A stretch of DNA of 64,000 bases from Natronolimnobius sp. AArcel1 (GTDB taxonomy: Archaea; Halobacteriota; Halobacteria; Halobacteriales; Natrialbaceae), in contig NZ_JAAKXY010000005.1 in assembly GCF_011043775.1 (NCBI RefSeq), forward strand, positions 186,001 to 250,000. The letters run 5' to 3'. Below are positions 4,863 through 36,721 of this stretch, in pieces. The notes below the pieces were generated by a model, which had not been told where the DNA came from, did no database searches, and saw nothing but the letters and a program-made list of their open reading frames with translations. The number at the start of each line of letters is the position of its first letter. Position 1 is the stretch's first letter. The position numbers and the translations under genes were made by a program.

Positions 4863-5540
4863 TTCCATCACCGCGTAATCGCGCTCACGTTGGTGCGTTC
4901 TCACCGGCAAACTCGTCGCTTGCATACCGTCTCTGTCTGTGCGTCCGTGAGTGGTAGTGTGCATTGTTTTCGTCCCAAAGCGTGTGAGTGCTGCGGGCCG
5001 AAACACCCGCTGTCGAGCACAAGTGCCTGATGACGTATATACGTCTGCCAACCAGAGTGAAAGTGAAACACGACTGTGGTTCGAGAGGTACGTTACCAAT
5101 TACTGATCAAAACTCTTCCTTGACAAATCAAACCTCTTTTGGATACTTCTCACAATGGTCCAAAACAAGTCTGTACTCATCCAAACGATGTGTATCAAAC
5201 ACTATATGGTTAATTTTGTGAAGAAGCCAGTCTGGAGACCAATATTCTGTTCGATTTGTCCCAGGTCTGTTCTCTGGTTCGACTCAATCCACACTGGAAG
5301 TCTCAGTGGGCGGATTAATGCGTGATAGACGAAACCATCGCATCTGAGTATCTATCGCACAGTTGTGGCCTGCCAGACACATTAAACTGTTCAATTTATA
5401 ATTTGTTGATAGTACTTACAACTTCCATATACTTCGTACTGTTTATGCAGTGATTGGTCCTCGTTTTCTTCGGCTACGTTGTTCAATCGATACGTATACA
5501 TGTGGCTGCCAGTATCGAATGAGTGGGTTCGTATCAGTCG
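4863..5540. other. AT-rich intergenic region, no gene supported
   Basis: Roughly 680 bp between the palindromic element and the MFS gene. The stretch 5100-5400 has lower GC than neighbouring genes and no frame with an acidic haloarchaeal composition. It may hold decayed sequence but I could not match it to any family. The 150 bp before the MFS gene contain several TATA-like stretches (for example TTTATAATTTG near 5396). Confidence 0.5.
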
Positions 5541-6713
5541 ATGAAATGGCGATATCGTGAGACTGTGCTGGCGCTGTGTACGCTTGCGTTTTTCGTGACG
5601 ATGGTCGGCCGATTAGCGATCAGTCCTGTCGTCCCCGATATTGTCTCGGCGTTTTCGACGACGAACGCGGCTGTTGGCCTCTCGCTGACGGGAATGTGGT
5701 TTGCGTACGGAATCGCCCAGTACCCAAGCGGCATCTTGGCAGATCGGTACGGCGAACGACGTATTATCCTCATCGCCGTTGCTGGTACCGCAAGTGCTGT
5801 ATTACTTGTTGCACTGGCACCAGCGTTCTGGCTCTTTTTCACTGCCACAGTCGTCCTTGGTGGCGTTGCTGGCTTGCACTACAGCGTTGCCACGACCTTG
5901 CTCGCACGGACGTACGACTCTGTCGGGACTGCAATCGGCGTTCACAACACCGGTGGGACCATCGCCGGATTAATGGCTCCTGTCGGTATCGCGTGGCTCG
6001 GTATTCACGTTGGCTGGCGTGTTGCAATCGCCACCGTCGCGATTGTCGGCATTCCAGTCGCCGCGCTGTTTGCCCTGAAGATTCGCTCCACTCAGCCACG
6101 GTACCCGGAGACACCGCTTCGAGACCAAGTTGATTATCATGCTGCCAAAACGGTTCTCACTCGCCCAGCAGTTGCGTTTACGCTCCTCATTTCGATTGTT
6201 GGCGAGTTCGCATGGCAAGGCACCGCCTCGTTTCTTCCGACGTTTCTCATCGAACACCACAACGCCTCGACGACGCTTGCCGGTGCGATCTTCTCGGCGT
6301 ATTTCGTCGTCCAGGGGATTGCCCAGATTGGCGTCGGCGCTGTCTCAGATCGGTTCGGTCGAGACGGGACCATCGCAGGGTGTTTCTTCGCCGGCGTGTT
6401 GGGGTTCGCTATTCTCATCTGGGCAACCGGACTCGAGTGGATGCTCCTTGGCGTTGCACTCCTGGGCATCGCGATGAGTTTTGACGCCGCGTCGATGCCG
6501 CGGTTTTTCCGTGCGTTCTCGAGTGAGGAACAGAACACGAGCTTCGGACTCGTGCGAACGATCTATATGATCGTCGCGGCCTCTGGTTCGGTTGTCGTCG
6601 GTGTGCTTGCTGATACGGCCAATTGGGCCGTCTCCTTTGGCTTTCTCGGTGGGATTCTCGCGATTATCGGCCTCGCAATCGTCGTCAACTGGGCGTTCGA
6701 TCTTGGCTACTGA
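5541..6713 (+). CDS. MFS transporter
   Basis: An integral membrane transporter of the major facilitator superfamily, 390 residues with about twelve predicted helices. The loop 2-3 signature is visible as GILADRYGERR and its second-half counterpart as GAVSDRFGRDG, both typical of MFS. An upstream in-frame GTG at 5523 would add six residues; the ATG at 5541 (MKWRYRETVLALC) is chosen because it leaves a short basic N-terminus before helix 1. The substrate cannot be read from sequence. Its stop is directly adjacent to the stop of the convergent rbsD-type gene, so it is close to the pentose module; a sugar or organic acid is plausible by location only. Confidence 0.9.
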   Translation: MKWRYRETVLALCTLAFFVTMVGRLAISPVVPDIVSAFSTTNAAVGLSLTGMWFAYGIAQYPSGILADRYGERRIILIAVAGTASAVLLVALAPAFWLFFTATVVLGGVAGLHYSVATTLLARTYDSVGTAIGVHNTGGTIAGLMAPVGIAWLGIHVGWRVAIATVAIVGIPVAALFALKIRSTQPRYPETPLRDQVDYHAAKTVLTRPAVAFTLLISIVGEFAWQGTASFLPTFLIEHHNASTTLAGAIFSAYFVVQGIAQIGVGAVSDRFGRDGTIAGCFFAGVLGFAILIWATGLEWMLLGVALLGIAMSFDAASMPRFFRAFSSEEQNTSFGLVRTIYMIVAASGSVVVGVLADTANWAVSFGFLGGILAIIGLAIVVNWAFDLGY

Positions 6714-7202
6714 TCACGGTCTCTCGCCATGCATTTCCTCGTATCGCTGCTCGTAGGCCTCGGGCATCACCTCTCGGTCACCATCGAAGAAGGGTTTCGG
6801 ATCTGTCCCACACTCGATGATAACGTTGCCCCAGGGCACGTACGAGCCAGTTCGGACGATTGCTTTTGCCTCGGCCCCGTGAGCGATCACGTCCTCGTGT
6901 GGAATCGTCTCGAGTGCTGTTCCAGTTCCCCCATACAGTTCCTGTAGCCGTTCGTCCATTGCTGGATTGTTCTCGGGCACAGCGTCGGCGTAGGTGACTG
7001 TCTCGGGGATCAGTTCCGCGTGGATCGCCTCGAGGACGTCGTAGAGCCCCGGAACGCCGCGTGTCAGTGCGAGATCGATCCGCCAGGCGTCCTGTGGAAT
7101 CGGAAAGCCCGCGTCGGTGACGATGAGCGTGTCTGTATGGCCCATGCGTGCGATTGCGTGATTCAACTCAGCGTGTAGAATGCCGTCTTCGTCTCGTTTC
7201 AT
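6714..7202 (-). CDS. rbsD: RbsD/FucU-type sugar pyranase
   Basis: Cytoplasmic D-ribose pyranase family protein, which interconverts pyranose and furanose forms of an imported sugar so that a kinase can act on it. The hallmark N-terminus is present: LNHAIARMGHTDTLIVTDAGFPIP, with the catalytic His in GHTD. The middle (VPGLYDVLEAI) and the end (YVPWGNVIIECG) match the family. The chosen ATG at 7202 (MKRDEDGILH) fits family N-termini; an ATG ten codons upstream is less likely. The protein is about 162 residues against about 139 in E. coli, because of a C-terminal extension of some 25 acidic residues (DPKPFFDGDREV and onward). It is transcribed divergently from the deoC-like and kinase genes across 144 bp that hold a 9-bp inverted repeat. 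Confidence 0.9.
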   Translation of the reverse strand: MKRDEDGILHAELNHAIARMGHTDTLIVTDAGFPIPQDAWRIDLALTRGVPGLYDVLEAIHAELIPETVTYADAVPENNPAMDERLQELYGGTGTALETIPHEDVIAHGAEAKAIVRTGSYVPWGNVIIECGTDPKPFFDGDREVMPEAYEQRYEEMHGERP

Positions 7203-7260
7203 GTGGATCTCTCCCGTGACATATTTGTGCACACACCTCTTGAAGGTATTCCCGCATACG

Positions 7261-7290
7261 CAACTGGCAGTGGGGGAATAGTGCCAGTTG
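7261..7290. promoter_or_regulatory. inverted repeat between divergent rbsD and deoC-like genes
   Basis: CAACTGGCA (7261-7269) and TGCCAGTTG (7282-7290) are perfect 9-bp arms separated by 12 nt, in the middle of the divergent intergenic region. Extending three more bases on each side keeps two of three pairs. Position and symmetry suggest an operator that controls both directions, for an IclR- or TrmB-type regulator; the regulator is not identified. Confidence 0.55.
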
Positions 7291-7346
7291 TGTGGGTTGC
7301 TAGCCCATAACGTTTTGTTGGCGTGCGGAATTGTGATAGCTGTTCT

Positions 7347-8027
7347 ATGTCACGAGAGCCAAGCGATGTGGCCGGGACGATCCAACACACGAACGTCAAC
7401 CCGTCCGCCACGGAGGATGATATCCGAACGCTCTGTGCAGAATGTCTCGAGTATGGATTCGATGGGGCAATGGTACAGGCGTGTTGGGTCCCATTCGTCC
7501 GCGACCAACTCGCCGGGAGCGACGTTACCGTCTGTTCGGCCGTTGGGTTTCCGATGGGCGGCGATAGACCGCTCTCGAAGGCGATGGCAATCCGCGACGT
7601 CGTTGCCGCCGGCGCAGAAGAAGTCGATGTCATGCCAAACATCGGCTTTGTGAAATCGGGACGCTTCGACGAGGTTGGCCGAGAAATGGACCTCATTGTC
7701 GAGGCAAGCGGCGACGCGACGTGCAAGGCCATGCTCGAACTCGGAGCGTTAACCGACGACGAAGCCGAACAGATCGTTGACCTCGCGATAGACGCCGGAT
7801 TCGACTACATCAAGAACTCGAGCGGCTGGGGCGAGGGTGGGAAAGCAACGGTTGATCGTATCGAGTTCCTGTGCGCACGTGCGGGCGATGAGACGCGTGT
7901 CAAAGCAAGTGGCGGCATCAAATCGCTCGAGGATGCAACCGAACTGCTCGATGCTGGCGCGGAACTGCTCGGCGCCTCGAGCGGCGTCGAGATCGTGACC
8001 GGAGGTGTCGGTGATGGCGAGTACTGA
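7347..8027 (+). CDS. deoC: DeoC-type aldolase (deoxyribose-phosphate aldolase family)
   Basis: Class I aldolase of the DeoC family, which in known members splits 2-deoxyribose 5-phosphate into acetaldehyde and glyceraldehyde 3-phosphate. The Schiff-base Lys lies in DYIKNSSGWG (family consensus FIKTSTGF), the proton-relay Lys in VKASGGIKS, and the conserved Asp in EEVDVMPNIG (consensus EIDMVINIG). These motif differences show a divergent branch, so the exact substrate may differ. ATG at 7347 (MSREPSDVAGTIQHT) is preferred to one eight codons upstream. It overlaps the kinase gene by 14 bp and is divergent from rbsD, which supports a pentose or deoxypentose catabolic unit. Confidence 0.88.
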   Translation: MSREPSDVAGTIQHTNVNPSATEDDIRTLCAECLEYGFDGAMVQACWVPFVRDQLAGSDVTVCSAVGFPMGGDRPLSKAMAIRDVVAAGAEEVDVMPNIGFVKSGRFDEVGREMDLIVEASGDATCKAMLELGALTDDEAEQIVDLAIDAGFDYIKNSSGWGEGGKATVDRIEFLCARAGDETRVKASGGIKSLEDATELLDAGAELLGASSGVEIVTGGVGDGEY

Positions 8028-8952
8028 GTCGGAGGGAAAGACACCGTCTATTGCGGTTGTCGGAAGCTATAATGTTGGGTTGACGATGCGTGTCCCACAG
8101 TTTCCTATTCCGGGCGAGACGGTCATCGGCGAGGGATTCGCCGAAGGTCCTGGCGGAAAGGGATCGAATCAGGCAATCGCTGCGAGTCGACTCGGTGCGG
8201 AGACAACATTCATCGGCCGTGTTGGAACTGACCGCTACGGCGACGACGCGTTCGATCTCTGGGAGCAAGAGGGAATCGACACCTCACAAGTCAGCCGGGA
8301 TGCAGAGGCCCATACGGGTGCTGGCTTCGTGCTCGTCGACGCCGAGGGAGAAAACGAGATTACGGTCGCACCCGGTGCAAACGCGACGTTGTCCGCGCAT
8401 CACGTCGATGACGCTGCCGATGTCATTGCTGAAAGTGATGTGTTGCTCGTCCAGTTAGAGATTGAAACGGATCCGATCGAACGCGTACTCGAGGTGGCTG
8501 CGAGCAACGATGTCGAGGTCGTGTTGAATCCGGCACCGGTACGGGATCTCGATCCGGCGGTACTCGACCAAGCGGCGTACCTCACACCGAATCAAAATGA
8601 GGCTCGCTCGCTCGCGGGAATTGATCCAGAAGACGAGGTTGCTGATCGAGCGATCGCCGAACAACTCTCAGAGCAGGTGGATGGGACAGTCGTGATGACC
8701 GTAGGGAGCGATGGAGCACTGCTCGTCGACGAGGCAGTAACTGCTGTTGATGCCCCGACGGTTGACCCGGTTGACACTACTGGTGCGGGTGATGCGTTCA
8801 ATGGTGCCTTTGCAGTTGGATTGGCATCCGGAATGACCCAAACTACGGCCGCCCATTTTGCGTGCGCTGCGGGAGCGTTGACCGTGACTGCGTCGGAGGT
8901 TGTCCCTGGGTTGCCGACACGGGACGCTGTTGAAGAGTTACATTCTAGTTGA
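8014..8952 (+). CDS. rbsK: PfkB-family sugar kinase, ribokinase-like
   Basis: ATP-dependent sugar kinase of the ribokinase branch, about 312 residues. Visible motifs: the sugar-binding GPGGKGSNQA, the ATP/anion-hole signature DTTGAGDAFNG with catalytic Asp, and LTPNQNEA. In E. coli ribokinase the first motif is GSINADH, whose Asp contacts the sugar hydroxyls; here the equivalent segment reads GSYNVGL, with Gly in place of that Asp. That argues for a substrate other than ribose, and the adjacent deoC-like gene makes a deoxypentose attractive. ATG 8014 (MASTESEGK) lies inside the end of deoC, so the two are translationally coupled. Followed by 190 bp and the sugar importer operon. Confidence 0.9.
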   Translation: MASTESEGKTPSIAVVGSYNVGLTMRVPQFPIPGETVIGEGFAEGPGGKGSNQAIAASRLGAETTFIGRVGTDRYGDDAFDLWEQEGIDTSQVSRDAEAHTGAGFVLVDAEGENEITVAPGANATLSAHHVDDAADVIAESDVLLVQLEIETDPIERVLEVAASNDVEVVLNPAPVRDLDPAVLDQAAYLTPNQNEARSLAGIDPEDEVADRAIAEQLSEQVDGTVVMTVGSDGALLVDEAVTAVDAPTVDPVDTTGAGDAFNGAFAVGLASGMTQTTAAHFACAAGALTVTASEVVPGLPTRDAVEELHSS

Positions 8953-9084
8953 ACGGCCTCGTGCGCTTTCAGTCATTTTATCTTCTCAATCTTACCCAAG
9001 AGTGTACAGGATTAATTAAACTTATTCCCCAAAACAACCGTTTTCGCCCGCTGTTTCTTTTTCCGACGACGTATAGTGGCTATG

Positions 9085-9107
9085 TTATCGGCAGCCTGGT
9101 GCGATAA
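9085..9107. promoter_or_regulatory. inverted repeat upstream of the sugar-binding protein promoter
   Basis: TTATCG (9085-9090) and CGATAA (9102-9107) flank an 11-nt spacer just upstream of the TATA-like box at 9112-9121. The position overlaps where the BRE and an operator would sit. Short arms, so this is tentative. Confidence 0.35.
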
Positions 9108-9111
9108 TAAC

Positions 9112-9121
9112 AATATTTATT
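9112..9121 (+). promoter_or_regulatory. TATA-like box for sugar ABC operon 1
   Basis: The AT-rich stretch ATATTTATTA ends about 25 nt before the ATG at 9146, the distance expected for a leaderless haloarchaeal transcript. This decides between the ATG at 9122 and that at 9146 in favour of 9146. Confidence 0.55.
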
Positions 9122-9145
9122 ATGATACTCCCGCTTGTCTGTGCT

Positions 9146-10330
9146 ATGCCACCGGATGACAAGAGCAGAGTCAACATACGGCTCGGGAAGGGCGTGTCTC
9201 GGCGAGATGTCATGCGTCAAGTCGGCGCAGCGAGTGCCGTTGGGGCTGCTGCCGGACTCGCCGGCTGTACCGATCTCGTCTTTCAGGAAGATTCCGACGA
9301 TGATGATACACCGGCAGGCGGCAACGGTGGGAACGGGAACGGCGACGTGCCCGATTTCCAACTTGTCGAACTGATTCCGCCACCGACCGACCTCGACTAC
9401 GAGAGCGAGTGGGAGGAGATGGACGTGAGCATGGTCACCCACGATGCTGCCACGTCCTTCTTCGATCCCGCAATTGCCGGCTTGCACGACGCCGCCCAGC
9501 AACTCGGTTGGAGCGCGAACTTCACTGGCCCGACCGGCGGCGAAGACGTCGAAGAACAGGTCCAGATCCTCGAGTCGACGGTCGATGCAGGACCGGACGT
9601 GATCATCACGACGGTTATCGATGAGAACGCCTACGATGCGGTGATTGAGGAGGCACTTGATAACGACATCGTCGTGATGTTGTACAACACCAACGCCTGG
9701 TCGGTCGATGACATGCAAGACCGCTTCGGTCGGACGCTGCCATACACGGGACAGGACAACTACGCTGCTGGGTACGTGGTTGGTCTTGAAGCAGCTGATC
9801 GACTCGAGAGCGAGGACGGCCAGGTAACAATCGCGACCTGTTGTCCCGGTCACTCTGCGCTTGGTGAGCGGGCAGACGGAATCGAAGCCGCACTCGAGAA
9901 CGAGACGGATGTAAGCACGGAGGTACTCGACATCACCGACGACTCCAACGAGGGGATTACACGCCTCGAAGATCACATCACAGCCGAAGATGACATTCTG
10001 GCCATCCTTGGGACCGATGCGTACACGTGGTTCATCGCGGAAGCGCTCGAGGCCCAGGGTGTCGAAGACGAGATTATGGGCGGCGGGTTCGACCTCGAGG
10101 AGCCGACGATGGAGGCGATCGAAAACGGGATCATGGAGTTCACGATCGGACAGGACCCCTTCTCACAGGGGTACGTCCCGACGATGCTCGCCTGGCTCTA
10201 CATGGAACGAGGTATTCCACCCAAAGACTACCGAACCGGCGCGGAAGTCATCGACCAGGAGAACATCGACTTCGCCTTAGAGCGAGATGATTGGTCGACG
10301 CTGATGGACTGGCAGGACGACAACTACTAG
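9146..10330 (+). CDS. CUT2-type sugar-binding lipoprotein (Tat exported)
   Basis: Substrate-binding protein of a ribose-type (CUT2) ABC importer, anchored outside the membrane. The N-terminus has a Tat twin arginine (GVSRRDVMRQV), a hydrophobic stretch (GAASAVGAAAGLAG) and a lipobox ending in Cys (GLAGC), then an acidic glycine/asparagine linker before the binding domain. The remainder matches the periplasmic-binding-protein type 1 fold: VSMVTHDAATSFFDPAIAGLHDAAQQLG, GPDVIITTVIDENAYD, and a C-terminal DPFSQGYVPTMLAWLY that is typical of ribose/ruminose binders. About 394 residues. It is the first gene of a three-gene importer unit and follows the kinase gene, so it probably supplies the sugar for that module. 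Confidence 0.92.
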   Translation: MPPDDKSRVNIRLGKGVSRRDVMRQVGAASAVGAAAGLAGCTDLVFQEDSDDDDTPAGGNGGNGNGDVPDFQLVELIPPPTDLDYESEWEEMDVSMVTHDAATSFFDPAIAGLHDAAQQLGWSANFTGPTGGEDVEEQVQILESTVDAGPDVIITTVIDENAYDAVIEEALDNDIVVMLYNTNAWSVDDMQDRFGRTLPYTGQDNYAAGYVVGLEAADRLESEDGQVTIATCCPGHSALGERADGIEAALENETDVSTEVLDITDDSNEGITRLEDHITAEDDILAILGTDAYTWFIAEALEAQGVEDEIMGGGFDLEEPTMEAIENGIMEFTIGQDPFSQGYVPTMLAWLYMERGIPPKDYRTGAEVIDQENIDFALERDDWSTLMDWQDDNY

Positions 10331-10365
10331 CGCGTCCGCCAAACTTCATTTCAGACACCTATAAC

Positions 10366-11172
10366 ATGAGTTCCAATTCACCCGTTATTCAGACGCAAGG
10401 ACTGACAAAAGAGTTCGGTACGATCAAAGCCGTCAATAACGTCGATTTCAGCGCCGAAGAGGGCGAGATCATGGCGATCGTCGGTGACAACGGTGCGGGC
10501 AAATCGACGCTCATTAAGATGCTCTGTGGCGTCCTCGAGCCGACCGAGGGCGAGATATTCGTTAGAGGTGAGAGCGTCTCCTTTGACGACTACAACGATG
10601 CCCGACAGATGGGTATCGGCACGGTCTATCAGGATCTCGCGTTGACACACAGTCAAACCGTTGCCTCGAACGTGTTCCTCGGAAACGAACCGGTTCGGGA
10701 GGGAATCGCCGGTCGACTCGGACTGGTCGACAAAGAGCGAATGAACAGAGAGGCCACGGAGGCACTTGAGAAAGTCAAGATTCCAGTTGACCCGAACTCA
10801 CAGGTGAGAAACCTCTCGGGCGGCCAACAACAGGCAGTCGCAATCGCTCGCGCACTCCAGTTCAATCCGGATATCCTGATCATGGACGAGCCGACGAGTG
10901 CACTGTCAATCGAGGGTGTCAGAAACGTACTCAACGTTGTCAACACACTTCGAAAGGAGGGAATCTCGATCATCCTCATCAGTCACAACATCGAGGAAGT
11001 GCTCGGAATCGCCGACCGGATTTCGGTGCTTCATCAGGGTGAACTCATGGGCGTGCTCGATGCGAAAACGTCCGACCGTGAGGATATCGTCCTCAAGATG
11101 ATGGGCGGCAAAGAGTCGGGTCAGGCGGCCCCGCTCGAGGATATTAGAGATGATGGGAGGTCCACAGCATGA
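10366..11172 (+). CDS. Sugar ABC transporter ATP-binding protein (single domain)
   Basis: ATPase of the CUT2 importer, cytoplasmic face of the membrane. Walker A is GDNGAGKST, the signature is LSGGQQQ, Walker B is ILIMDEPTSAL, and the switch His follows in ISHNIEEVL. The protein has 268 residues and only one ABC domain, whereas classical RbsA has two fused copies, so the functional unit should be a homodimer. The ATG at 10366 (MSSNSPVIQTQGLTKEF) is chosen; the open frame extends upstream through the end of the previous gene but that part has no family match. Spacing to the binding protein is 35 bp and it overlaps the permease by 4 bp (ATGA). Confidence 0.94.
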   Translation: MSSNSPVIQTQGLTKEFGTIKAVNNVDFSAEEGEIMAIVGDNGAGKSTLIKMLCGVLEPTEGEIFVRGESVSFDDYNDARQMGIGTVYQDLALTHSQTVASNVFLGNEPVREGIAGRLGLVDKERMNREATEALEKVKIPVDPNSQVRNLSGGQQQAVAIARALQFNPDILIMDEPTSALSIEGVRNVLNVVNTLRKEGISIILISHNIEEVLGIADRISVLHQGELMGVLDAKTSDREDIVLKMMGGKESGQAAPLEDIRDDGRSTA

Positions 11173-12206
11173 GCGAAGAGACAAGTAAGCCGGGTAGTGG
11201 CGGTGGTGGCGGTGCATCTGCCACTGTTCGCGGCCCCTCGACGCTCATTGGCCGGCTCACCTCACGTCGCGAAGCCGGCGTGTTGTTCGGATTTATTGTC
11301 CTGTACGGCATCATTGCAGTGAGTCGACCGGATATCTTCTTTAGCTGGGGAGATATCTCTGGCGTTACGTTCCGGCTGTTCCGCACAGCGTCGATCTACA
11401 TCATCATCGGCATCGGGATGAGCTTCCTCATCATCAGTGGCGAGTTCGACCTCTCTGTGGGGTCAATGTTCGCTGTCGGCGGGCTTTCGTTCGCCATGCT
11501 GATTCAGGACTTCCAGTTGACCGTCTTTGCGGCGATGGTCGTTGTCCTGCTGATCGCTGCCGGCGTTGGCGTGACTAACGGTGTGATCGTCACGAAGATT
11601 GGTGTTCCTTCGCTGATTGCGACGATCGGCATGCTCAGCGTCCTCAGGGGGGTTGCGCTCTCGATAACCGACGGCTCGTGGGGCGTCCCGCGAGATAATT
11701 CCGCTATCCACCTGCTCGGCGGCACGACAGAGGTCTTCGGTGTAAGTGTTGCCCATCAGGTAGTCTGGGCGCTCTTGCTGGTGATCGCATTCGGGTTCGT
11801 CCTTCATCAGACGCGCTTTGGCTACCACATCTACGCCGTGGGTGACGATCAGGATGCAGCCGAGAAGACGGGGATCAACGCCGACCGGGTGAAGATCTTG
11901 AACTTCGTCATCGTCGCCATGCTGGCAGCACTGGCCGGCATGATCAGCATCTCCTACTACGGGTCGATGTTCGCCTCGAGTGGGGCAACCTACGAACTGC
12001 TGATCATCGCTGCGGTGGTCATCGGCGGGACCAACCTCTTCGGCGGTGAAGGGACGCTCTCGGGGATGGTCCTCGGGGCACTCGTAATCGCCATCATCCC
12101 GCAAGTGCTCGTCCTGAACGGCATGAGCGTCGACATCCAGGAATTACTGACCGGCGTCATCATCATCGTCGCCGTCGTCCTGGACATCATCTTCCGCGGG
12201 CGCTAA
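11169..12206 (+). CDS. Sugar ABC transporter permease (RbsC-like)
   Basis: Membrane subunit of the CUT2 importer, 345 residues with about eight to ten helices. The family motif is visible as SGEFDLSVGSMFAVGG (consensus GGIDLSVGS) and the cytoplasmic loop that meets the ATPase as YAVGDDQDAAEKTGIN. A glycine-rich N-terminal segment (GSGGGGGAS) precedes the first helix. It overlaps the ATPase gene by 4 bp, so ATPase and permease are translated together. The next gene on the strand (12243) starts 36 bp later and may share the transcript. Confidence 0.94.
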   Translation: MSEETSKPGSGGGGGASATVRGPSTLIGRLTSRREAGVLFGFIVLYGIIAVSRPDIFFSWGDISGVTFRLFRTASIYIIIGIGMSFLIISGEFDLSVGSMFAVGGLSFAMLIQDFQLTVFAAMVVVLLIAAGVGVTNGVIVTKIGVPSLIATIGMLSVLRGVALSITDGSWGVPRDNSAIHLLGGTTEVFGVSVAHQVVWALLLVIAFGFVLHQTRFGYHIYAVGDDQDAAEKTGINADRVKILNFVIVAMLAALAGMISISYYGSMFASSGATYELLIIAAVVIGGTNLFGGEGTLSGMVLGALVIAIIPQVLVLNGMSVDIQELLTGVIIIVAVVLDIIFRGR

Positions 12207-13056: not shown

Positions 13057-14262
13057 TTACTCTGGAGTGTCGTCCGCGTCGGCGACGACCACGTCGTTTT
13101 CGACCAGTTCGTCGACTTCCTCGTCCGTGTAGCCGCGCTCGAGTAAGACCGTACGCGTATCCTGTCCAAGCGCCGGTGGCGAGTGACGCACGTCGCCCCC
13201 GCTTTCGGAGAGCTTCGCGGGAAAGCCGGTCGTCTTGAACGACTCGCCGTCGGGTCGCTCGATCTCGAGTATCATGTCGTTGTGCTGGACCTGTGGGTCC
13301 GATTCCACCTCAGTGAGGTCGCGTGCGACGCTCGCTTGCACGTCGGCATCGACGAGGTCGTCGACGATCTCCTCGGCGCGGTGGTCGGTCGTGTAGGTTT
13401 CGATCAGATCGTGGATCTCGTCTCGATGCTCGAACAGTTCCTGTTGGTCCTCATATGCCTCGAGTTCGGGCAGGTCGAACGTCTCAGCGATGCGCTCCAT
13501 CGGCGACATGCCAATCGCGACGTGGCCGTCGCTGGCCTCGTAGATGCCATATGGCGGGTACAGGTAGGCATGTCCGTGCGTCTTTTCCCCGCGCGGGAGG
13601 CCTTCCTCGAGGTTCATCGCGAAGGTGAGTTCGTTACACTGGCGATCAACGGCGGCGTTGAGCAGGCTCGTTTCGACGCGCTGGCCCTCGCCGGTTCGTT
13701 CGCGGTGATAGAGTGCCTCGACGGTGTGCATCGCGGCTAGCGTGGCTGTGTGTTCGTCGACGACGACAGTGCCGGCTGGCGTCGGCGGATCATCGTTTCG
13801 GCCCGTATAGGAGGTGAGGCCAGTCATCGCTTGGTAGATGAGGTCCTGGCCGGGTCGGTTCGCGTACGGTCCCGATGAGCCATAACCGGAGATTTCGACG
13901 AAGATGATGTCTGGATTCACCTCAGTCACCTCGTCGTAACTCAGCGACAGGCGCTCCATCACGCCGGGACGGAAGTTGTGGATTAACACGTCCGCGTCCT
14001 CGATAATGTCTGTCGCGATCTGATGGCCCTCGTCGGTTTTCAGATCAATGGCCACGCTTCGCTTGTTCCGATTCATCGTTAGATAGCCCACACCGTTCCC
14101 CTCGAGCGTCTGACCGCGGTAACTCATCGTCCGCTGAACCTCACCCGCAGGATGCTCGAGTTTGATCACGTCTGCACCCATATCTCCGAGTTTCTGGGCT
14201 GCCCATCCGCCAGCCATTAGCTGTGTAAAATCAGCTACTGTGACATCTGCTAACGATTGCAT
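13057..14262 (-). CDS. CaiB/BaiF (class III) CoA-transferase
   Basis: Moves CoA between acyl-CoA and a free carboxylic acid by the class III (formyl-CoA transferase) mechanism. The family N-terminus is clear: VTVADFTQLMAGGWAAQKLGDMGADVIKLEHP, followed by NRNKRSVAIDLK, and the catalytic Asp is expected in the GQDLIYQAMTGL segment (PGQD). Start at 14262 (MQSLADVTVADF) fits the family; the longer open frame to 14337 adds a basic, proline-rich stretch with no family match. About 401 residues. It is divergent from an IclR gene 209 bp away and resembles the second CoA-transferase at 28604-29806, so the pair may act on related acids. The acid is unknown. Confidence 0.92.
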   Translation of the reverse strand: MQSLADVTVADFTQLMAGGWAAQKLGDMGADVIKLEHPAGEVQRTMSYRGQTLEGNGVGYLTMNRNKRSVAIDLKTDEGHQIATDIIEDADVLIHNFRPGVMERLSLSYDEVTEVNPDIIFVEISGYGSSGPYANRPGQDLIYQAMTGLTSYTGRNDDPPTPAGTVVVDEHTATLAAMHTVEALYHRERTGEGQRVETSLLNAAVDRQCNELTFAMNLEEGLPRGEKTHGHAYLYPPYGIYEASDGHVAIGMSPMERIAETFDLPELEAYEDQQELFEHRDEIHDLIETYTTDHRAEEIVDDLVDADVQASVARDLTEVESDPQVQHNDMILEIERPDGESFKTTGFPAKLSESGGDVRHSPPALGQDTRTVLLERGYTDEEVDELVENDVVVADADDTPE

Positions 14263-14440
14263 ACTGGTAGCTATTCGCGTGATGGTAGGTAAAGCATTGG
14301 GGTTAGTAGGTAATTGCCTCTGTGGAAATACGCTCATAGTGGCTGCTCACCCCCACTACCCGCTAGACTATCTCTCCGCCGTCACGATCTCGAGGTGATT
14401 CTGTCGGCCCAGTTCACCCGGGCGTTCAGTCATTCCAAAT

Positions 14441-14450
14441 TATTATATGG
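14441..14450 (+). promoter_or_regulatory. TATA-like box for the IclR gene at 14472
   Basis: TATTATATGG is centred about 26 nt before the ATG at 14472, consistent with a leaderless transcript. Confidence 0.5.
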
Positions 14451-14471
14451 GTAGTTACTGTCTAGCGTGAT

Positions 14472-15239
14472 ATGAGCGATCCGCCCAAAAATCCAGTTAA
14501 GTCGATTCAACGAGCTGTGGCTCTCCTTTCGGTGCTTAAAGAAACCGGTGGTGCGCGTATTGTCGATCTTGAGGAGCGTGTCGATCTCTCGAAGGCGACG
14601 ATACATAGCTATCTGGCGACGCTCGAGGAGGCTGGCTTCGTCGAAAAAGATGGTGTCACGTATCGGCTCGGGTTGGCGCCGCTGACACTCGGTGGGTATG
14701 TCCGGGATCACGACCCGCTGTACATGGCTGGGCGTGACGGCGCTGATGAACTCGCTGAGCAAACGGGCGAACTGGTCGCGTTGATGACCGAGTGGAACGG
14801 CCGGTCGACGTACCTGTACCAGACATCGGGCGATCAAGCACTTGCGATGGACTCACACCTCGGCGTCCAGTTGCCGATGCACTGTACCGCTGCAGGGAAG
14901 GCGATTCTCGCAGAACTACCTCGTGATCAAATAGACGCGATTATCGAGAGACACGGACTTCCAGCCTGGACCGCGAACACGATTACTGACCGTGAGCATC
15001 TTCTCGCAGAACTCGAAGAGATTCAGTCCCGGGGTGTCGCTTTCGATGATGAAGAGCGAATTACCGGCTTGCGTGGTGTCGGTGTGCCGGTAACAACTGA
15101 TGACTCGCTGCTCGGTGCAATTGCCCTCGCGGGCCCTGTCAACCGGCTACAAGGAACGCGATACTGGGAGGATTTACCGGAACAGTTGACAAAAATCGAA
15201 CGAATGATCGAGGTGAAAGCGACGTATCCGCCGGCGTAG
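14472..15239 (+). CDS. IclR-family transcriptional regulator
   Basis: Cytoplasmic DNA-binding regulator, 255 residues. The N-terminal winged helix reads SIQRAVALLSVLKETGGARIVDLEERVDLSKATIHSYLATLEEAGFV and the effector domain contains the typical QLPMHCTAAGKAILAELP and FDDEERITGLRGVGVPV. It is very similar in layout to the regulator at 25087 (both have the DDEER motif near residue 190). It diverges from a CaiB/BaiF CoA-transferase and precedes the aldose-epimerase-like gene and the two Gfo/Idh/MocA genes, so it is the likely controller of one or both. A TATA-like box lies at the leaderless distance from the ATG. Confidence 0.94.
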   Translation: MSDPPKNPVKSIQRAVALLSVLKETGGARIVDLEERVDLSKATIHSYLATLEEAGFVEKDGVTYRLGLAPLTLGGYVRDHDPLYMAGRDGADELAEQTGELVALMTEWNGRSTYLYQTSGDQALAMDSHLGVQLPMHCTAAGKAILAELPRDQIDAIIERHGLPAWTANTITDREHLLAELEEIQSRGVAFDDEERITGLRGVGVPVTTDDSLLGAIALAGPVNRLQGTRYWEDLPEQLTKIERMIEVKATYPPA

Positions 15240-15428
15240 GCACACGTTTGGCTATACCGAACGGCTCCGTCTTTGGTCACTTCCTGTGCGACTCACACGC
15301 ATTCTATTACAGCGGTACATATGTAATCATGCTCAGCAGTAGTGAGCACTGTGATCGGTTGTTCGGCCATTCCAAACGTCGTGACACGGGGGTGTCCTTT
15401 TTTTACCATGGGGCGCGAGTGAACGCGC

Positions 15429-16502
15429 ATGTCTGCCCGTCAGACTGCGCCGCGAATTGATGATGCATACACCTATCACGGCATTGACGCCGTTCTCCTC
15501 GAGAACGCGCATCTCCGCGTCTTGGTCCTTCCCGGGAAGGGTGGGGATATTCTTGAATTCCGTGATAAACAGACTGATGTCGATGTCCTGTGGCACGCCG
15601 ACCACGAGTGGATGCCACCTGATACTGGGACGGTTCCTGAACCGGAATCTGCGTCCTGGCTCGATCACTATCCCGGTGGCTGGCAACTCAATCTTCCGAT
15701 CGCTGGCACTGTTACGGATGATAACGTTCCGTATGGGCTCCACGGCGAAAGCGCCCTCATCCCGTGGTCGTACACGACTTCGACTACCGATGATGCCGTG
15801 GTACTCGAGTTACAGACTGACCTGTTGCGATATCCATTCGCACTCGAGCGGACGCTGACGCTTTCAGCCACGGACCCAACACTCGAAATTACCGAGCGCG
15901 TGACCAACGAGGGGGGCGTTGATCTTGAGTACATCTGGCAACAACATATTGCGCTCGGGCAGCCATTGATTGGACCAGGTGCACGACTTGATGTCCCGAC
16001 CAGTATGGGCCAGGTCGCGGAGTATCGGCCGGGCCACGAGAACGCGCGACTCGAGTCCGGAGCGACCTTCGAGTGGCCCGATGCACCGGGAACCGACGGC
16101 ACGATGATCGACCTCCGCCAGTTCCCGCCACTCGATTCGACGATCCATGATGTGGCGTACGCGACCGACCTCGAGGCAGGCTGGTTTGCCGTCACGAATC
16201 CCGATCTCGACGTTGGCTTCTGTTTTACCTTCCCCACTGATCCGTTCGAGTGTCTCTGGTACTGGCAACCATTCGGTGGTCACGCCGAAGCGCCCTACTG
16301 GAACCGTAACTACAACGTTGGCCTCGAGCCGACAACCGCCTATCCGGCTGTCGACGTTCCCGCTGCCCAGCGAGACAACGGGACGATGAAAACGCTTGGC
16401 GCGGGAGAGACGCTCGAGGCATCGTTTGTTGCCCGCACCTACCATGATGTCGCGTCTGTGCGCGCTGTCGACGCGGACGGCACCATTCATGAAGACATGT
16501 GA
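15429..16502 (+). CDS. Aldose-1-epimerase-like (galactose mutarotase fold) protein
   Basis: A 357-residue beta-sandwich protein of the galactose-mutarotase superfamily. Recognisable are the N-terminal strand (LRVLVLPGKGGDILEF), the WQLNLP segment, the LHGES segment that corresponds to the catalytic His region of aldose 1-epimerases (NVPYGLHGESALIPW), and the late region WYWQPFGG. It probably interconverts anomers of a sugar or acts on a related substrate; the branch is not the classical GalM, and a DUF4432-like assignment is possible. No signal peptide, so cytoplasmic. It stands 190 bp after an IclR gene and 66 bp before two oxidoreductase genes on the same strand, which fits a sugar oxidation unit. 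Confidence 0.75.
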   Translation: MSARQTAPRIDDAYTYHGIDAVLLENAHLRVLVLPGKGGDILEFRDKQTDVDVLWHADHEWMPPDTGTVPEPESASWLDHYPGGWQLNLPIAGTVTDDNVPYGLHGESALIPWSYTTSTTDDAVVLELQTDLLRYPFALERTLTLSATDPTLEITERVTNEGGVDLEYIWQQHIALGQPLIGPGARLDVPTSMGQVAEYRPGHENARLESGATFEWPDAPGTDGTMIDLRQFPPLDSTIHDVAYATDLEAGWFAVTNPDLDVGFCFTFPTDPFECLWYWQPFGGHAEAPYWNRNYNVGLEPTTAYPAVDVPAAQRDNGTMKTLGAGETLEASFVARTYHDVASVRAVDADGTIHEDM

Positions 16503-16544
16503 TACAATGGCATAGCTTGATTATGTTACTCAGCGTACACGGTC

Positions 16545-16561
16545 CACCAGGGTTCCTGGTG
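16545..16561. promoter_or_regulatory. short perfect inverted repeat before the oxidoreductase pair
   Basis: CACCAGG (16545-16551) and CCTGGTG (16555-16561) are perfect 7-bp arms around GTT, ending 7 bp before the ATG at 16569. It could be an operator, a translation-control hairpin or the terminator of the upstream gene. Confidence 0.35.
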
Positions 16562-16568
16562 TGTTACC

Positions 16569-17687
16569 ATGACATGGACTGTTGCTGGCATCAACTTCGC
16601 GCACTTTCACATGGGCGATAACTTACGACTCGTCGAAGACCATCCCGACGCCGAAATCGTCGCCATCTGCGATGAGGACCCAGATGAATCGACACTCGGA
16701 CTCGAGGACACGGCCGGAGAGTTCGACATTCCCGACGACCGCGTCTATCGAGATCACGAGGCGTGTCTCGAGGAAACCGAGCCCGATATCGTCATCCTCT
16801 GTCCTGTCCCCTCCGAACACGCCGACTGGGTCGAAAAGGTCGCCCCCTACGGCGTGAACGTCGTTCTCGAGAAACCGTTCGCAACCTCGGTTGAAGACGC
16901 CGACCGCATCCTCGAGGCGATGGCCGAGGGTGGCGGCAAACTCGCAGTCAACTGGCCGCTGGCATGGTACGAATCCCACCGAACCGCAAAGCGCGTCCTC
17001 GATGAGGGGACCATCGGCGACGTTCGCGAGGTCCACTACTACGACGGCAACAAGGGCAGCGGCCGCTTCACGCAGGTGGAGTACACCGACTCGGGCGAAC
17101 TGCACTTCGCGGGTGACGACCTCGAGGACACCGACGAAGCCGCCGCAACCTGGTGGCATCAGGCCGACCGCGGCGGCGGCTCGCTCAACGACTACCTCGG
17201 CTATGGCGTCACCCTCGGCACCTGGTTCCGCGACGGTGAACTCCCGCTCGAGGTGACGACCGAGACACACACGCCCGAGTGGTCGCCGGTCGACACTCAC
17301 AGCATCACAATCGCGAGCTACGAACACGGTCTCTCGAAGTACGAGACACGCTGGGGGACGTTCACCGACCCCTGGGTTCACCAGCCCCAACCAAAGTGTG
17401 GATTCGTCCTCGTCGGTACCGAGGGAACAATTGTAAGTTACGACTACGAGGAGACCATCCGCGTGCAAGACGACGACCATCCTGAGGGCTACGACATCGA
17501 AGTTGACCCGCTCGAGGAGCCACTCGAGAACGTCATCCAGTATTTGATCGACCGCCTCGAGAACGACGAACAGGTTGCGTTTCCGCCGCTGAATCCCGAG
17601 CACTGTCGAGAGGCCCAGCGGGTCATTGACACCGCCCACCTGAGCGCCGAACGCGGCGAACGAGTGGAACTCGTGGGGGACCGATGA
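16569..17687 (+). CDS. Gfo/Idh/MocA-family oxidoreductase
   Basis: NAD(P)-dependent dehydrogenase of a sugar or inositol-type compound, 372 residues, cytoplasmic. The N-terminal Rossmann region is atypical (VAGINFAHFHMGDN in place of GxGxxG), but the family hallmark EKP is present (VVLEKPFATS) with the active-site Lys, as is the substrate region WPLAWYESHRTAK. It overlaps the next oxidoreductase gene by 4 bp (ATGA), so the two are co-translated and may form a mixed complex or act in sequence on the same sugar. The substrate cannot be assigned from sequence. Confidence 0.9.
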   Translation: MTWTVAGINFAHFHMGDNLRLVEDHPDAEIVAICDEDPDESTLGLEDTAGEFDIPDDRVYRDHEACLEETEPDIVILCPVPSEHADWVEKVAPYGVNVVLEKPFATSVEDADRILEAMAEGGGKLAVNWPLAWYESHRTAKRVLDEGTIGDVREVHYYDGNKGSGRFTQVEYTDSGELHFAGDDLEDTDEAAATWWHQADRGGGSLNDYLGYGVTLGTWFRDGELPLEVTTETHTPEWSPVDTHSITIASYEHGLSKYETRWGTFTDPWVHQPQPKCGFVLVGTEGTIVSYDYEETIRVQDDDHPEGYDIEVDPLEEPLENVIQYLIDRLENDEQVAFPPLNPEHCREAQRVIDTAHLSAERGERVELVGDR

Positions 17688-18796
17688 GCGACGACGACGA
17701 GACCTACGGCATCGCCGACATTGCCGATCTCGAGGAGATCTCCCCACCAGATCTGCCGTACAAACCGAAACATGTCGGCGACTCGCCGCCAATCGCGCTC
17801 ATCGGCACGGGCGGCATCGCCGAACAGCACCTCACGGCGTACCGCGATGCGGGGTACGACGTGCGGATGCTGTGTAACCGAACACGGGAACGCGCCGAAA
17901 AGTACCGCGAGACGTTCTATCCCGACGCAGACGTCACCAGTGACTATCACGAGGTCCTCGAGCGCGACGATATTCCTGTCGTAGATGTGCTTCCGCATCC
18001 GGTCGACCGCGCGCCGATTCTCGAGGATGCACTCGAGGCGGGCAAGCACGTCCTCAGTCAGAAGCCGTTCGTCGTCGACCTCGAGTTCGGCGAGCGACTC
18101 GTCGAACTGGCCGACGAACGCGGCGTTGCACTCGCGGTGAACCAGAACGGCCGCTGGGCCCCCCACTGGAGTTACATCCGCCACGCAATCGCCGAGGGGT
18201 TGATCGGCGACCCACACGGCATTCACTGCAGCGTCGACTGGGATCACAACTGGATCGCCGAGACCGAGATCAACGCAATCGAACACGCCGTCCTCTACGA
18301 TTTCGCGGTCCACTGGTTCGACATCGTCACCTGCTTCATGGGTGATGCCGAGCCAAAGCGAGTCTACGCATCGTACGAACCGTCGCCAACCCAGCAGGCC
18401 GACCCACCGCTGCTTGGACAGGCGGTCATCGAGTACGAGAACGCACAGGCGACGCTGTCGTTCGACGCCGACACGCCGGTTGGACCCAAAGACCGAACCA
18501 CTGTCGTCGGCACAGACGGGACGATTAGAAGTGAGGGGCCGGACCTCGAGCAGCAATCGGTGACCCTGTATACAGCGGAGGGCTATGCAAGACCCGATCT
18601 CGAGGGGACCTGGTTCCCCGATGGCTTTCACGGTGCGATGGCCGAGTTGCTGTCCGCCATCGACGAGGGCCGCGAGCCGTCGAACAGCGCCCGCAACAAC
18701 CTCCGAACGCTCGAACTCTGCTACGCGGCGGTCGCGAGCGCTGAGGACCACGAACCGGTGGTTCCGGGCTCGGTGCGCCAGCTGCGGGGTGAGTGA
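17684..18796 (+). CDS. Gfo/Idh/MocA-family oxidoreductase
   Basis: Second member of a co-translated pair, 370 residues. The nucleotide-binding motif is standard (IALIGTGGIAEQHLTAY); the family EKP motif appears as SQKPFVVD, with Gln replacing Glu but the catalytic Lys kept. The substrate half contains VNQNGRWAPHWSYIRHAI and EHAVLYDFAVHWFDIVTCF, with the family His in place. A 40-residue N-terminal extension (DIADLEEISPPDLPYKPKH) precedes the Rossmann domain, as also seen in part in the protein at 31697. The overlap with the upstream gene argues for a joint function in sugar oxidation or dehydration. Confidence 0.91.
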   Translation: MSDDDETYGIADIADLEEISPPDLPYKPKHVGDSPPIALIGTGGIAEQHLTAYRDAGYDVRMLCNRTRERAEKYRETFYPDADVTSDYHEVLERDDIPVVDVLPHPVDRAPILEDALEAGKHVLSQKPFVVDLEFGERLVELADERGVALAVNQNGRWAPHWSYIRHAIAEGLIGDPHGIHCSVDWDHNWIAETEINAIEHAVLYDFAVHWFDIVTCFMGDAEPKRVYASYEPSPTQQADPPLLGQAVIEYENAQATLSFDADTPVGPKDRTTVVGTDGTIRSEGPDLEQQSVTLYTAEGYARPDLEGTWFPDGFHGAMAELLSAIDEGREPSNSARNNLRTLELCYAAVASAEDHEPVVPGSVRQLRGE

Positions 18797-18808
18797 CTCG
18801 CTACTGCG

Positions 18809-20479
18809 TCACTCCGGAAAGAGCGTCGCCCGGTCGAGTTTCCCCGTCCGCGTTCGTGGCGGGTCCTCGAGCACCTCGATCTCGTGGGGCGTCTTGTGTG
18901 GCCCGAGACTGTCTCTGACGTGCTGGCGCAGCGTCTCTTCGATTGGTGCCTGCCCACTCGCTTCAGCCGGCGTCTCCACCGCTTTCCCGAGCAAGACGTA
19001 CGCGACGATCCGTTGACCCCGTTCGTCGTCTGAGACTCCACCAACGGCGGCGTTAGCAACCATCGGCGACCGACAGAGCGCGGCTTCGACCGCCGTTGGG
19101 CTGACCCGGTAACCCGAGGAGATGATGAGGTCGTCAGCCCGGCCCGCGAAGGTCACGTATCCGTTTTCGTCCATCCGCGCCAGATCGCCGGTAAGATACC
19201 AGTCGCCGGCATAGCACGCCTCGGTTGCCTCCTCGTCGCCGAGATAGCTTTCGAAGAGGACAGGATCGGATCGCTCGAGTGCGATCTGTCCGACCGAACC
19301 AGGCGCGACTGGCTCGAGGTCCTCGTCGAGAATCGCGCACTCGTGGCCCGGATAGATGCGCCCCATCGAGTCCGGTTTTGACTCATAGAGCGCCTGACAG
19401 TCCCCGATCAGCGCGTTGGCTTCCGTCTGGCCGTAGGCTTCGTTGACGACGATCTCGAGTTCGCGTTCGGCCCACTCCTTGACCGGTTCGGGCAGCTTCT
19501 CGCCACCACACATCACGACCTCGAGCGCCTCGAGATCCGCCGCACTTGGCTTTGTCTCCTCCCGGATCTGCCACATCGCTGTTGACGGCATGAACGACCG
19601 GCTCACGTCGAATTGCTCGATCAATGCGAGGGCGCCGACGGGGTTAAATCCACTGCGGCGCACGCTCGAGACGACGATCCCACCGCAGGCGAGCGTCGGG
19701 AAGACGGCGTCGAACAGTGCTCCCGCCCAGGCCCACTCGGCAGGCGTCCAGACGCGCTCTCGGTGCTCGTCGCCGAAGCAGTGAAACCAGCACTGATAGC
19801 CCGGGAGCGTCCCGATGAGGTACTGGTGGCGCTGCACGACTCCCTTAGGTGTTCCCGACGTTCCGGACGTGTAGACAATGATTGCCGGCTCGTCCGGTTT
19901 CGTCGCGACGATGTCGCTCGAGCGGTCACTCGAGACGTGGTCGGCGAACGCGCCGAGATGTCGTTCGGGTCCGTCGTACGTTTCGGCTGCGAGATCGACG
20001 ACCAGTTTGACCGGCAAATCGGCGTCTTCGACGGTCGTCTCAAAGTGCTCGTAGACTGTTGCGTCGGCGAGCAATGCGCTTGCCTCGCTGTGTGCGAGAC
20101 TGTGCTCGAGGGACTCCTGACCAAGCAGCACCGAGAGCGGCACCGCGAGACAGCCGATTCGATACGTTGCCAGATGGGCAACCAGCAGTTCGGGTGACTG
20201 GGGAAAACAGAGCGCGATCCGATCACCGGACTCGAGGCCAGCCTCGAGGAGATGTGCGCCGAGTGCGCTTGCGGTATCGTCCAGTTCGGCATAGGTAAAT
20301 CGGTGCGCTCTACCGTGATCGTCCCGATGAATAAGGGCGGTCAGATCCCGCGTCTCGTCGGCTTTCTCTACAGTTTCGGCCAGATTATAGGTCTCGGGAA
20401 GGTCCCACTCGAAGGCCTCGTTCAGATATGCATCGGTGTCGAGTGACTCTTCGCTCGGGAACGAATACCCCACAGGCAT
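18809..20479 (-). CDS. AMP-dependent acyl-CoA synthetase
   Basis: Activates a carboxylic acid to its acyl-CoA through an acyl-adenylate, 556 residues. The adenylation core motif is IIVYTSGTSGTPKGVV, the A5-type motif NEAYGQTE, the A7/A8 motifs WYLTGDLARMDENGY and GRADDLIISSGYRVSP, and the C-terminal catalytic Lys lies in RTRTGKLDR. The layout fits medium-chain or acetate-type acyl-CoA synthetases; the acid is not readable. It converges with the Gfo/Idh pair (12 bp between stops) and diverges from an enoyl-CoA hydratase 103 bp away, so it may share regulation with the latter. Confidence 0.94.
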   Translation of the reverse strand: MPVGYSFPSEESLDTDAYLNEAFEWDLPETYNLAETVEKADETRDLTALIHRDDHGRAHRFTYAELDDTASALGAHLLEAGLESGDRIALCFPQSPELLVAHLATYRIGCLAVPLSVLLGQESLEHSLAHSEASALLADATVYEHFETTVEDADLPVKLVVDLAAETYDGPERHLGAFADHVSSDRSSDIVATKPDEPAIIVYTSGTSGTPKGVVQRHQYLIGTLPGYQCWFHCFGDEHRERVWTPAEWAWAGALFDAVFPTLACGGIVVSSVRRSGFNPVGALALIEQFDVSRSFMPSTAMWQIREETKPSAADLEALEVVMCGGEKLPEPVKEWAERELEIVVNEAYGQTEANALIGDCQALYESKPDSMGRIYPGHECAILDEDLEPVAPGSVGQIALERSDPVLFESYLGDEEATEACYAGDWYLTGDLARMDENGYVTFAGRADDLIISSGYRVSPTAVEAALCRSPMVANAAVGGVSDDERGQRIVAYVLLGKAVETPAEASGQAPIEETLRQHVRDSLGPHKTPHEIEVLEDPPRTRTGKLDRATLFPE

Positions 20480-20582
20480 GCAAGCAGCGTACGCTGCGGC
20501 GTGGTATGTAGCTTGCGACCAGTCACGCTCTCGAGTCGCCGGTCGCCGATGGCTCTATGTACTATACTGACAATGCACATGT

Positions 20583-21344: not shown

Positions 21345-21359
21345 CGGACTGCTGTACTG

Positions 21360-22352: not shown

Positions 22353-22471
22353 GGAAACCTCCTCGTCGCGGCTTCAACACGAATCGTGATAAATGTGTGT
22401 CCACATACCACGGTCACTCGACGACGGTATCGATCTCTGTCACAGCTTTCAGGGGTGACAACGGACGCATC

Positions 22472-22557
22472 CTATAGTAGCCACTGCAAGTCAGTGCACT
22501 CCTGATCGCCAGATGGGTCGGCGATCAGTGTGTAAATAGTTGCAGTTGTTACTATAG
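22472..22557 (+). repeat. 86-bp palindromic element, copy B
   Basis: Begins CTATAGTAGCCACTGC and ends CAGTTGTTACTATAG, with complementary ends (15 of 18 pairs). The inner hairpin has arms TGATCGCC/GGCGATCA around an AGATGGGT loop; arm sequence differs from copies A and C but pairing is kept. It lies 46 bp upstream of the SDR gene in the same orientation. Confidence 0.88.
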
Positions 22558-22603
22558 TTTCGCGACGAACAGTTAAGTTCCACTATAACGAAGACTCACG
22601 GAG

Positions 22604-23398: not shown

Positions 23399-23403
23399 AT
23401 ACC

Positions 23404-35323: not shown

Positions 35324-35492
35324 ATCTGTTCTCGAGTTCGTCACTCTGTGAGATAAATGTCCTGTCCACCGTGAACAGAACATCCAGGATACCATATCCC
35401 ATCTGTGTTGGTTATCTAACGTTGATCCTCAATTGAAAATGGTTATAGACTGAGAAAAGTATTAAGTGGTGGTTCGAGAAATGAGACAGTGT

Positions 35493-36695: not shown

Positions 36696-36721
36696 CTGAT
36701 CAGCAGAAAAAAATATCCTAT

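Follow-up and report, generated by a model that had tools for sequence, protein, structure and literature searches.

The closest described counterpart of the system considered here is a soil-metagenome cluster encoding a nucleoside hydrolase (RK9NH) and an aldolase (RK9DPA) resembling deoxyribose-phosphate aldolase (DERA), carried by a clone that was selected on 2'-O-methyluridine (PMC6278475). With this hydrolase, conversion reached 100% for both uridine and 2'-O-methyluridine but was 0% for 2'-deoxyuridine, and the aldolase failed to complement E. coli deoC on thymidine. A ribokinase lies upstream in a related Intrasporangium genome; the clusters cited with the clone are those of Intrasporangium chromatireducens and of Microbacterium resistens, whose hydrolase closely resembles the Agromyces sp. 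MM-1 enzyme. Only the hydrolase was characterised in that study, the roles of kinase and aldolase being left open. The present analysis concerns a gene cluster of comparable make-up, containing an aldolase and a kinase, in a 64,000-nucleotide stretch of the haloarchaeon Natronolimnobius sp. AArcel1 (contig NZ_JAAKXY010000005.1, positions 186,001 to 250,000; hereafter the window).

Two other precedents are relevant. Variants of E. coli DERA with changes close to C2 (L20A, F76A) accept an aldehyde with a methoxy (OMe) substituent, and 2-OMe-ribose-5-phosphate has been produced in quantity by engineered E. coli DERA working in the synthetic direction (PMC11821518). The haloarchaeal non-carboxylating pentose bisphosphate pathway (PMC9700705) resembles the route proposed below in using a nucleoside sugar and in ending with an aldolase step that yields a C2 aldehyde along with a triose phosphate; it differs in employing a ribose-1-phosphate kinase, an isomerase, a phosphatase and a FucA-type aldolase.

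Cluster organization and proposed pathway

The cluster and its immediate surroundings comprise the following features, where ABC denotes ATP-binding cassette and MFS major facilitator superfamily.

5523..6713, plus strand: MFS transporter, convergent with the RbsD gene; its membership of the system is uncertain
6714..7232, minus strand: RbsD-like pyranase (NF008761 profile match), with the ATG at 7202 as the probable true start
7258..7293, no strand: inverted repeat with 12-nt arms (7258-7269 and 7282-7293, 92%), between the RbsD and aldolase genes
7347..8027, plus strand: class I aldolase of the DERA fold, named DeoCv; proposed 2-O-methylribose-5-phosphate aldolase
8014..8952, plus strand: PfkB kinase with Asp16 and Ala98 both replaced by Gly, named RbsKv; proposed 2-O-methylribose 5-kinase
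9146..10330, plus strand: secreted substrate-binding protein (Peripla_BP_4), part of the proposed importer
10366..11172, plus strand: sugar-type ABC transporter ATPase
11169..12206, plus strand: ribose-type ABC transporter permease

RbsD is divergent from the aldolase-kinase pair, whose open reading frames (ORFs) overlap on the plus strand (7347-8027 and 8014-8952), and the importer genes lie downstream of the kinase. An earlier reading made from the sequence alone (the sequence-only reading) had recognised RbsD, a DeoC-type aldolase and a PfkB kinase at 6714-8952; all three ORFs are present and give strong family matches.

DeoCv and RbsKv very probably form a coupled kinase-aldolase pair of changed specificity that is found across two domains of life, as judged by sequence comparison. 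We give about even chances to the proposal that these genes make up a cassette acting on a pentose modified at C2, most likely 2-O-methyl-D-ribose from the turnover of 2'-O-methylated RNA. The free sugar would enter through the ABC system (9146-12206), and the diverged RbsD would convert its pyranose form to the furanose; where sister clusters have a nucleoside hydrolase, that enzyme would be the source of the sugar instead. The kinase, lacking Asp16 and Ala98, would then phosphorylate O5 of 2-O-methylribose. Isomerisation of 2-O-methylribose-5-phosphate at C2 to ribulose-5-phosphate is not possible, which bars this product from the usual pentose routes. In the last step, the Lys167 equivalent of the aldolase would form a Schiff base at C1 and break the C2-C3 bond, yielding glyceraldehyde-3-phosphate and methoxyacetaldehyde. 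Such a substrate would explain why O2 avoids Asp16, why the pocket around C2 is changed, why an isomerase is useless and why an aldolase is needed.

A separate clade of DERA-like aldolases

The window aldolase scores 188.9 bits against TIGR00126 (DERA, EC 4.1.2.4), above the cutoff of 117.3. Its AlphaFold model (mean per-residue confidence, pLDDT, of 91) finds its best matches among DERA structures, with PDB entry 3ngj at the top (template-modelling score, TM, 0.93). DeoCv shares with DERA the fold, the Lys167/Lys201/Asp102 set and the phosphate-binding residues, but it belongs to a separate clade and has changed pocket residues at 16, 47, 73, 139, 140 and 142. In a 71-row tree, 22 haloarchaeal and 6 bacterial aldolases form the single DeoCv clade with support 100/100, the branching order among its bacterial members being unsure; the remaining rows are 27 ordinary bacterial DeoC proteins and 16 further haloarchaeal ones, of which 13 are ordinary and 3 belong to a third type. 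With the same support, the window aldolase does not group with the ordinary DERAs of the same organisms. A DeoC match was present in 387 of the 391 genomes of the class, and a DeoCv-like copy (identity at least 58%) in only 15; below these carriers, identity was at most 43% among the matches listed. A second DeoC with the usual DERA pocket is located elsewhere in the window's genome, and a second DeoC match occurs in 14 of the 15 carriers, G282 (91% complete) having DeoCv only. The window aldolase should not be taken for the DERA of this cell: an ordinary enzyme of that kind exists elsewhere in the genome, and the DeoCv clade is separate.

The ordinary DERA pocket (Asp or Glu16, Cys47, Val73, Ile139, Thr168) is not matched by DeoCv. 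Among haloarchaeal copies, D16Q is found in all 14 that are readable, C47M, V73A, I139M, I140L and T142L each in 15/15, and T168N in 12 of 15. Residue 20 is Val in 14/14 readable copies, as against Leu in 13 of the 16 other haloarchaeal DeoC proteins. The Lys167 and Lys201 equivalents occur in 15/15, that of Asp102 in 14/15, and the phosphate-binding residues are kept. The sequence-only reading had pointed to diverged active-site surroundings (KNSSGW and MPNIG); both motifs are indeed present and prove to be part of a signature common to the whole clade. Five actinobacterial copies and one from a Lacticaseibacillus plasmid (with Phe at 142) share the signature, three further actinobacterial loci have it in part, and as a full set it is absent from the other DeoC proteins examined. 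The actinobacterial copies come from two scans. The Actinomycetales scan matched 64 of 396 genomes, from which 30 loci were classified (5 with the signature and 25 ordinary); a further scan matched 12 of 396, giving 3 loci with the whole or partial signature and 8 ordinary ones, with L184 not extracted. All three signature loci of the latter have Ala at 142; in addition, L175 and L177 share Val at 47, and L177 differs further by Ile at 139. The engineered L20A/F76A DERA (PMC11821518) catalyses the proposed DeoCv reaction in the synthetic direction; it is a laboratory enzyme, whereas natural DeoCv alters other positions, and residue 20 is either Val or Ile in the majority of copies seen.

Some related loci deserve mention in their own right. 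The third haloarchaeal type of DeoC (L021, L022, L029 and also L142) carries IDHTNVDP, VVVPYH, MVMNRTAF and KTAVGYDG and is unlike both ordinary DERA and DeoCv. On a Lacticaseibacillus paracasei plasmid (L066:5950-10229), the DeoCv-type aldolase is accompanied by a GntR regulator and a mannose-family phosphotransferase system (PTS), with no kinase in the annotated stretch. The partial-signature aldolase of L177 (genome G1047) adjoins what appears by sequence to be a BMP-type nucleoside ABC transporter. The Microbacterium locus L065, a match of the genome scan, was set aside, its protein being by sight an ordinary long DERA.

A ribokinase relative lacking Asp16 and Ala98

The window kinase scores 298.1 bits against TIGR02152 (ribokinase, RbsK), marginally under the curated cutoff of 299.65. 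Its 98.2 bits against NF053626 (haloarchaeal ribose-1-phosphate kinase) fall far short of that model's cutoff of 330, and the ribose-1-phosphate kinase route was rejected on this score. RbsKv is like RbsK in family and in six of the seven ribose contacts (PMC9604405): Asn14, Gly42, Lys43, Asn46, Glu143 and the catalytic Asp255 are kept. It is unlike RbsK in the Asp16 and Ala98 replacements, and the ribose-contact set is thereby incomplete. The sequence-only reading had seen GSYNVGL in place of the GSINADH of E. coli RbsK, and had held the lost Asp to be meaningful; both observations are upheld, residue 16 being Gly in every readable aldolase-linked kinase. According to PMC9604405, Asp16 is a ribose ligand in E. 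coli RbsK, and Ala98 faces the 2' and 3' hydrogens, its beta-carbon being the lid atom nearest the 2'-oxygen of modelled arabinose. The same paper reports that A98G raises the activity on D-arabinose, the C2 epimer, by an order of magnitude.

Gly16 is found in 15/15 kinases aligned with the haloarchaeal carrier-genome set. Gly16 and Gly98 occur together in the aldolase-linked kinases (21/21 readable haloarchaeal and 5/5 actinobacterial, plus L174; the L055 kinase is unreadable at the scored positions), and five Actinomycetales kinases also have Gly at 14. Haloarchaeal kinases that are not beside the aldolase show Asp16 and Ala98 in 8 of 9 readable cases. These nine come from 14 matches outside the clusters, of which L128-L131 cannot be aligned at residue 16 and L123 (G203) is a fragment. 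In the tree, the kinases of G030, G251 and G287 (two lineages), genomes without DeoCv, carry Asp16 and Ala98 and are nested inside the Gly16 clade, so the Gly16/Gly98 state goes with the presence of the aldolase and is not a matter of descent only.

Two alternative front ends

After 10 near copies (at least 97% identical) were removed from 32 haloarchaeal DeoCv rows, 22 distinct loci remained, and the kinase adjoins the aldolase in all of them. Ten of the loci have a nucleoside hydrolase within 3 kb, 8 have RbsD and an ABC importer, 4 have neither and no locus has both; the binding protein is kept in 8 of the 22. The hydrolase, RbsD and importer counts derive from tblastn; the gene calls (by length or frame composition) are crude and several neighbour calls are visibly wrong. 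Among the rows set aside as copies, L053 and L056 have a hydrolase match, L052 has none and L040 has neither front end. No hydrolase or RbsD was found within 5 kb of 20 other DeoC loci (16 ordinary and 4 of the third type), which were hand-picked from the listed matches rather than drawn at random; 6 of them have a weak PfkB match (27-32%). A small actinobacterial sample repeats the split: the hydrolase accompanies L100, L102, L103 and L174 (at 28% only in L174), and RbsD with the ABC system accompanies L099 and L101, near copies of each other.

With its ribokinase, DERA-like aldolase, GntR regulator and nucleoside hydrolase, the soil-metagenome cluster is similar in gene make-up to L100, L102 and L103 (PMC6278475). 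In L102 and L103, a GntR gene, kinase, aldolase, hydrolase and MFS gene are contiguous; the GntR and MFS names in bacterial loci were assigned by sight of the sequence. The three-gene set of ribokinase, DERA-like aldolase and hydrolase is found in those three loci and in 10 of the 22 haloarchaeal ones. The window cluster itself lacks it, RbsD and the importer replacing the hydrolase. The two front ends would fit one free pentose, either released inside the cell as the furanose or imported mainly as the pyranose and then shifted by RbsD. All aligned cluster hydrolases except that of L174 are of the DTDTA type. A set of 21 columns distinguishes the hydrolases of the 10 haloarchaeal clusters from two others of Halorhabdus, but it was not used as a mark of 2'-O-methyl specificity because none of the columns is tied to the 2' position and there are only two control sequences.

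The window RbsD passes the D-ribose pyranase model NF008761 (118 bits, cutoff 93). In the position of the PYAN motif of E. coli RbsD it carries PWGN, as do 8/8 haloarchaeal and 2/2 actinobacterial aligned copies, and its C-terminus is about 27 residues longer than that of the E. coli protein. The top NCBIfam model for the substrate-binding protein (9146-10330) is rhizopine binding protein, with a score far below its cutoff. The sequence-only reading had described a divergent promoter, with a 9-bp inverted repeat, shared by the three genes. The repeat at 7258-7293 exists but lacks a conserved counterpart in L032, the sister genome, and was rejected as a conserved regulatory site. As RbsD is moreover placed beyond the kinase, not divergent from the aldolase, in 6 of the 8 importer-type clusters, the repeat is weak evidence of regulation. 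A repeat before the importer genes was looked for and none was found.

Other candidate substrates

The main rival is the cleavage of ribose-5-phosphate: ribose would be phosphorylated and split into glyceraldehyde-3-phosphate and glycolaldehyde, a route that would stand in for an absent non-oxidative pentose phosphate pathway. In its favour, the transketolase model PF00456 finds no match in the genome, although a ribose-5-phosphate isomerase A is present. The importer, RbsD and kinase all come from ribose-like families, and RK9NH also frees the base from uridine (PMC6278475). Plain ribose nevertheless fits less well because it leaves the kinase change unexplained: the ribose ligand Asp16 is lost, while relatives without the aldolase have both Asp16 and Ala98. 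The Halorhabdus kinases of L139 and L140, which stand beside hydrolases 55-57% identical, are likewise of the ordinary Asp16 kind, with no such aldolase adjoining. We regard this route as unlikely, though it deserves to be kept in mind.

Somewhat less likely still is the substrate favoured by the sequence-only reading, in which the kinase would make 2-deoxyribose-5-phosphate and the aldolase would cleave it to acetaldehyde and glyceraldehyde-3-phosphate. The part of that reading that stands is a route through a kinase and aldol cleavage, distinct from classical ribose use; the deoxypentose is disfavoured, a C2-modified pentose, 2-O-methylribose foremost, being the better fit. The DERA fold, the catalytic residues and a score above the TIGR00126 cutoff agree with a deoxyribose route, and a deoxy sugar could suit a kinase that has lost a contact to sugar hydroxyls. 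However, deoxyribose leaves unexplained both the hydrolase, whose published representative spares 2'-deoxyuridine (PMC6278475), and the separate ordinary DERA in the genome. The DeoCv pocket signature as a whole is missing from other DeoC proteins examined, and in the same paper the published aldolase does not replace deoC. Furthermore, a Lentilactobacillus buchneri plasmid bears a likely deoxyribose cluster, judged as such by its genes (deoC, an epimerase family protein and a kinase); Asp16 and Ala98 are both present in its kinase, and the pocket of its aldolase is ordinary except for Met at 47 and Asn at 142.

Another pentose varied at C2, such as D-arabinose, whose 5-phosphate would give glycolaldehyde and glyceraldehyde-3-phosphate, is improbable: the A98G effect in E. 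coli RbsK (PMC9604405) and the different way in which Asp16 would meet O2 in the arabino configuration speak for it, but no arabinose-specific family scored above cutoff among the seven cluster proteins searched, and the nucleoside hydrolase link points to ribo-configured nucleosides.

Evidence weighing against 2-O-methylribose

Several observations count against the 2-O-methylribose proposal. We infer the kinase and aldolase activities, and the identity of the sugar, by comparison, and RK9DPA is assigned provisionally to the DeoCv clade from gene order alone. The published hydrolase cuts plain uridine equally well (PMC6278475). The window cluster has no nucleoside hydrolase, the one match in the genome lying elsewhere and being of the DTDPG type, and L052, a near copy of a hydrolase-bearing locus, shows none on its short contig. 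No linked gene for processing methoxyacetaldehyde was seen, although no systematic search was made for one.

In the aldolase, Phe or Tyr is retained at F76, the better of the engineered DERA positions; C47M and I139M introduce residues that are not smaller. Met47 also occurs in the ordinary-looking L. buchneri DeoC, and L175 and L177, which have only part of the signature, yielded no kinase. The clade members are related, hence the counts are not independent. The G236 kinase combines Gly16 with Ala98 in a genome without DeoCv, and the L043 kinase (8329-9228), otherwise normal-looking for a cluster kinase, has a gap over Glu143; it may be inactive or reflect an assembly error. Finally, the aldolase frame of Halorhabdus G268 is interrupted by an in-frame stop and carries Gly instead of the catalytic Asp102, and this copy may be dead.

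Two of these genomes show further features of interest. In G268 (Halorhabdus amylolytica H27; L044 / L064), the kinase and hydrolase frames beside the broken aldolase look open, and a second cassette at L140 has an ordinary Asp16 ribokinase and a hydrolase. The G236 kinase locus (L134) is a different catabolic cluster that also has a nucleoside hydrolase and, by sight, a D-2-hydroxyacid dehydrogenase, a thiamine diphosphate (ThDP) enzyme, a PdxA-like dehydrogenase, a DUF1537-like kinase and a lactate-racemase-like protein; it is possibly another fate for the same sugar.

Other features of the window

The MFS gene (5523-6713) has a match at E 1e-10 only in L032 among 31 other haloarchaeal locus records. 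Beyond the importer, positions 13057-24549 form a catabolic island with a CoA transferase, IclR, Gfo/Idh oxidoreductases, an AMP-binding protein, an enoyl-CoA hydratase, a short-chain dehydrogenase/reductase (SDR) and GH88 (names taken from a Halomontanus record), which in whole or in part also adjoins the cluster in some relatives, e.g., L032, L033, L036 and L067. At 35466-38512 there is, by sight, another ABC transporter of the ribose type, made up of binding protein, permease and ATPase, and a 3468-residue ORF with repeated segments at 45384-55790 apparently encodes a large secreted surface protein.

Significance

The literature searched contained no report of a 2-O-methylribose kinase or of a natural 2-O-methylribose-5-phosphate aldolase, many subscription papers being out of reach. 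The odds seem evenly poised that haloarchaea, actinobacteria and at least one lactobacillus plasmid (the aldolase only in this last case) have in common a dedicated 2-O-methylribose cassette, which would complete a route from 2'-O-methylated nucleosides to triose phosphate. If true, this would name the two enzymes acting after the hydrolase and would correct the deoxyribose-phosphate aldolase label on public records. The two kinase marker residues and the aldolase pocket signature would then allow the cassette to be found elsewhere, and DeoCv and RbsKv may provide natural enzymes for making 2'-modified nucleosides, a task in which engineered DERA has served (PMC11821518).

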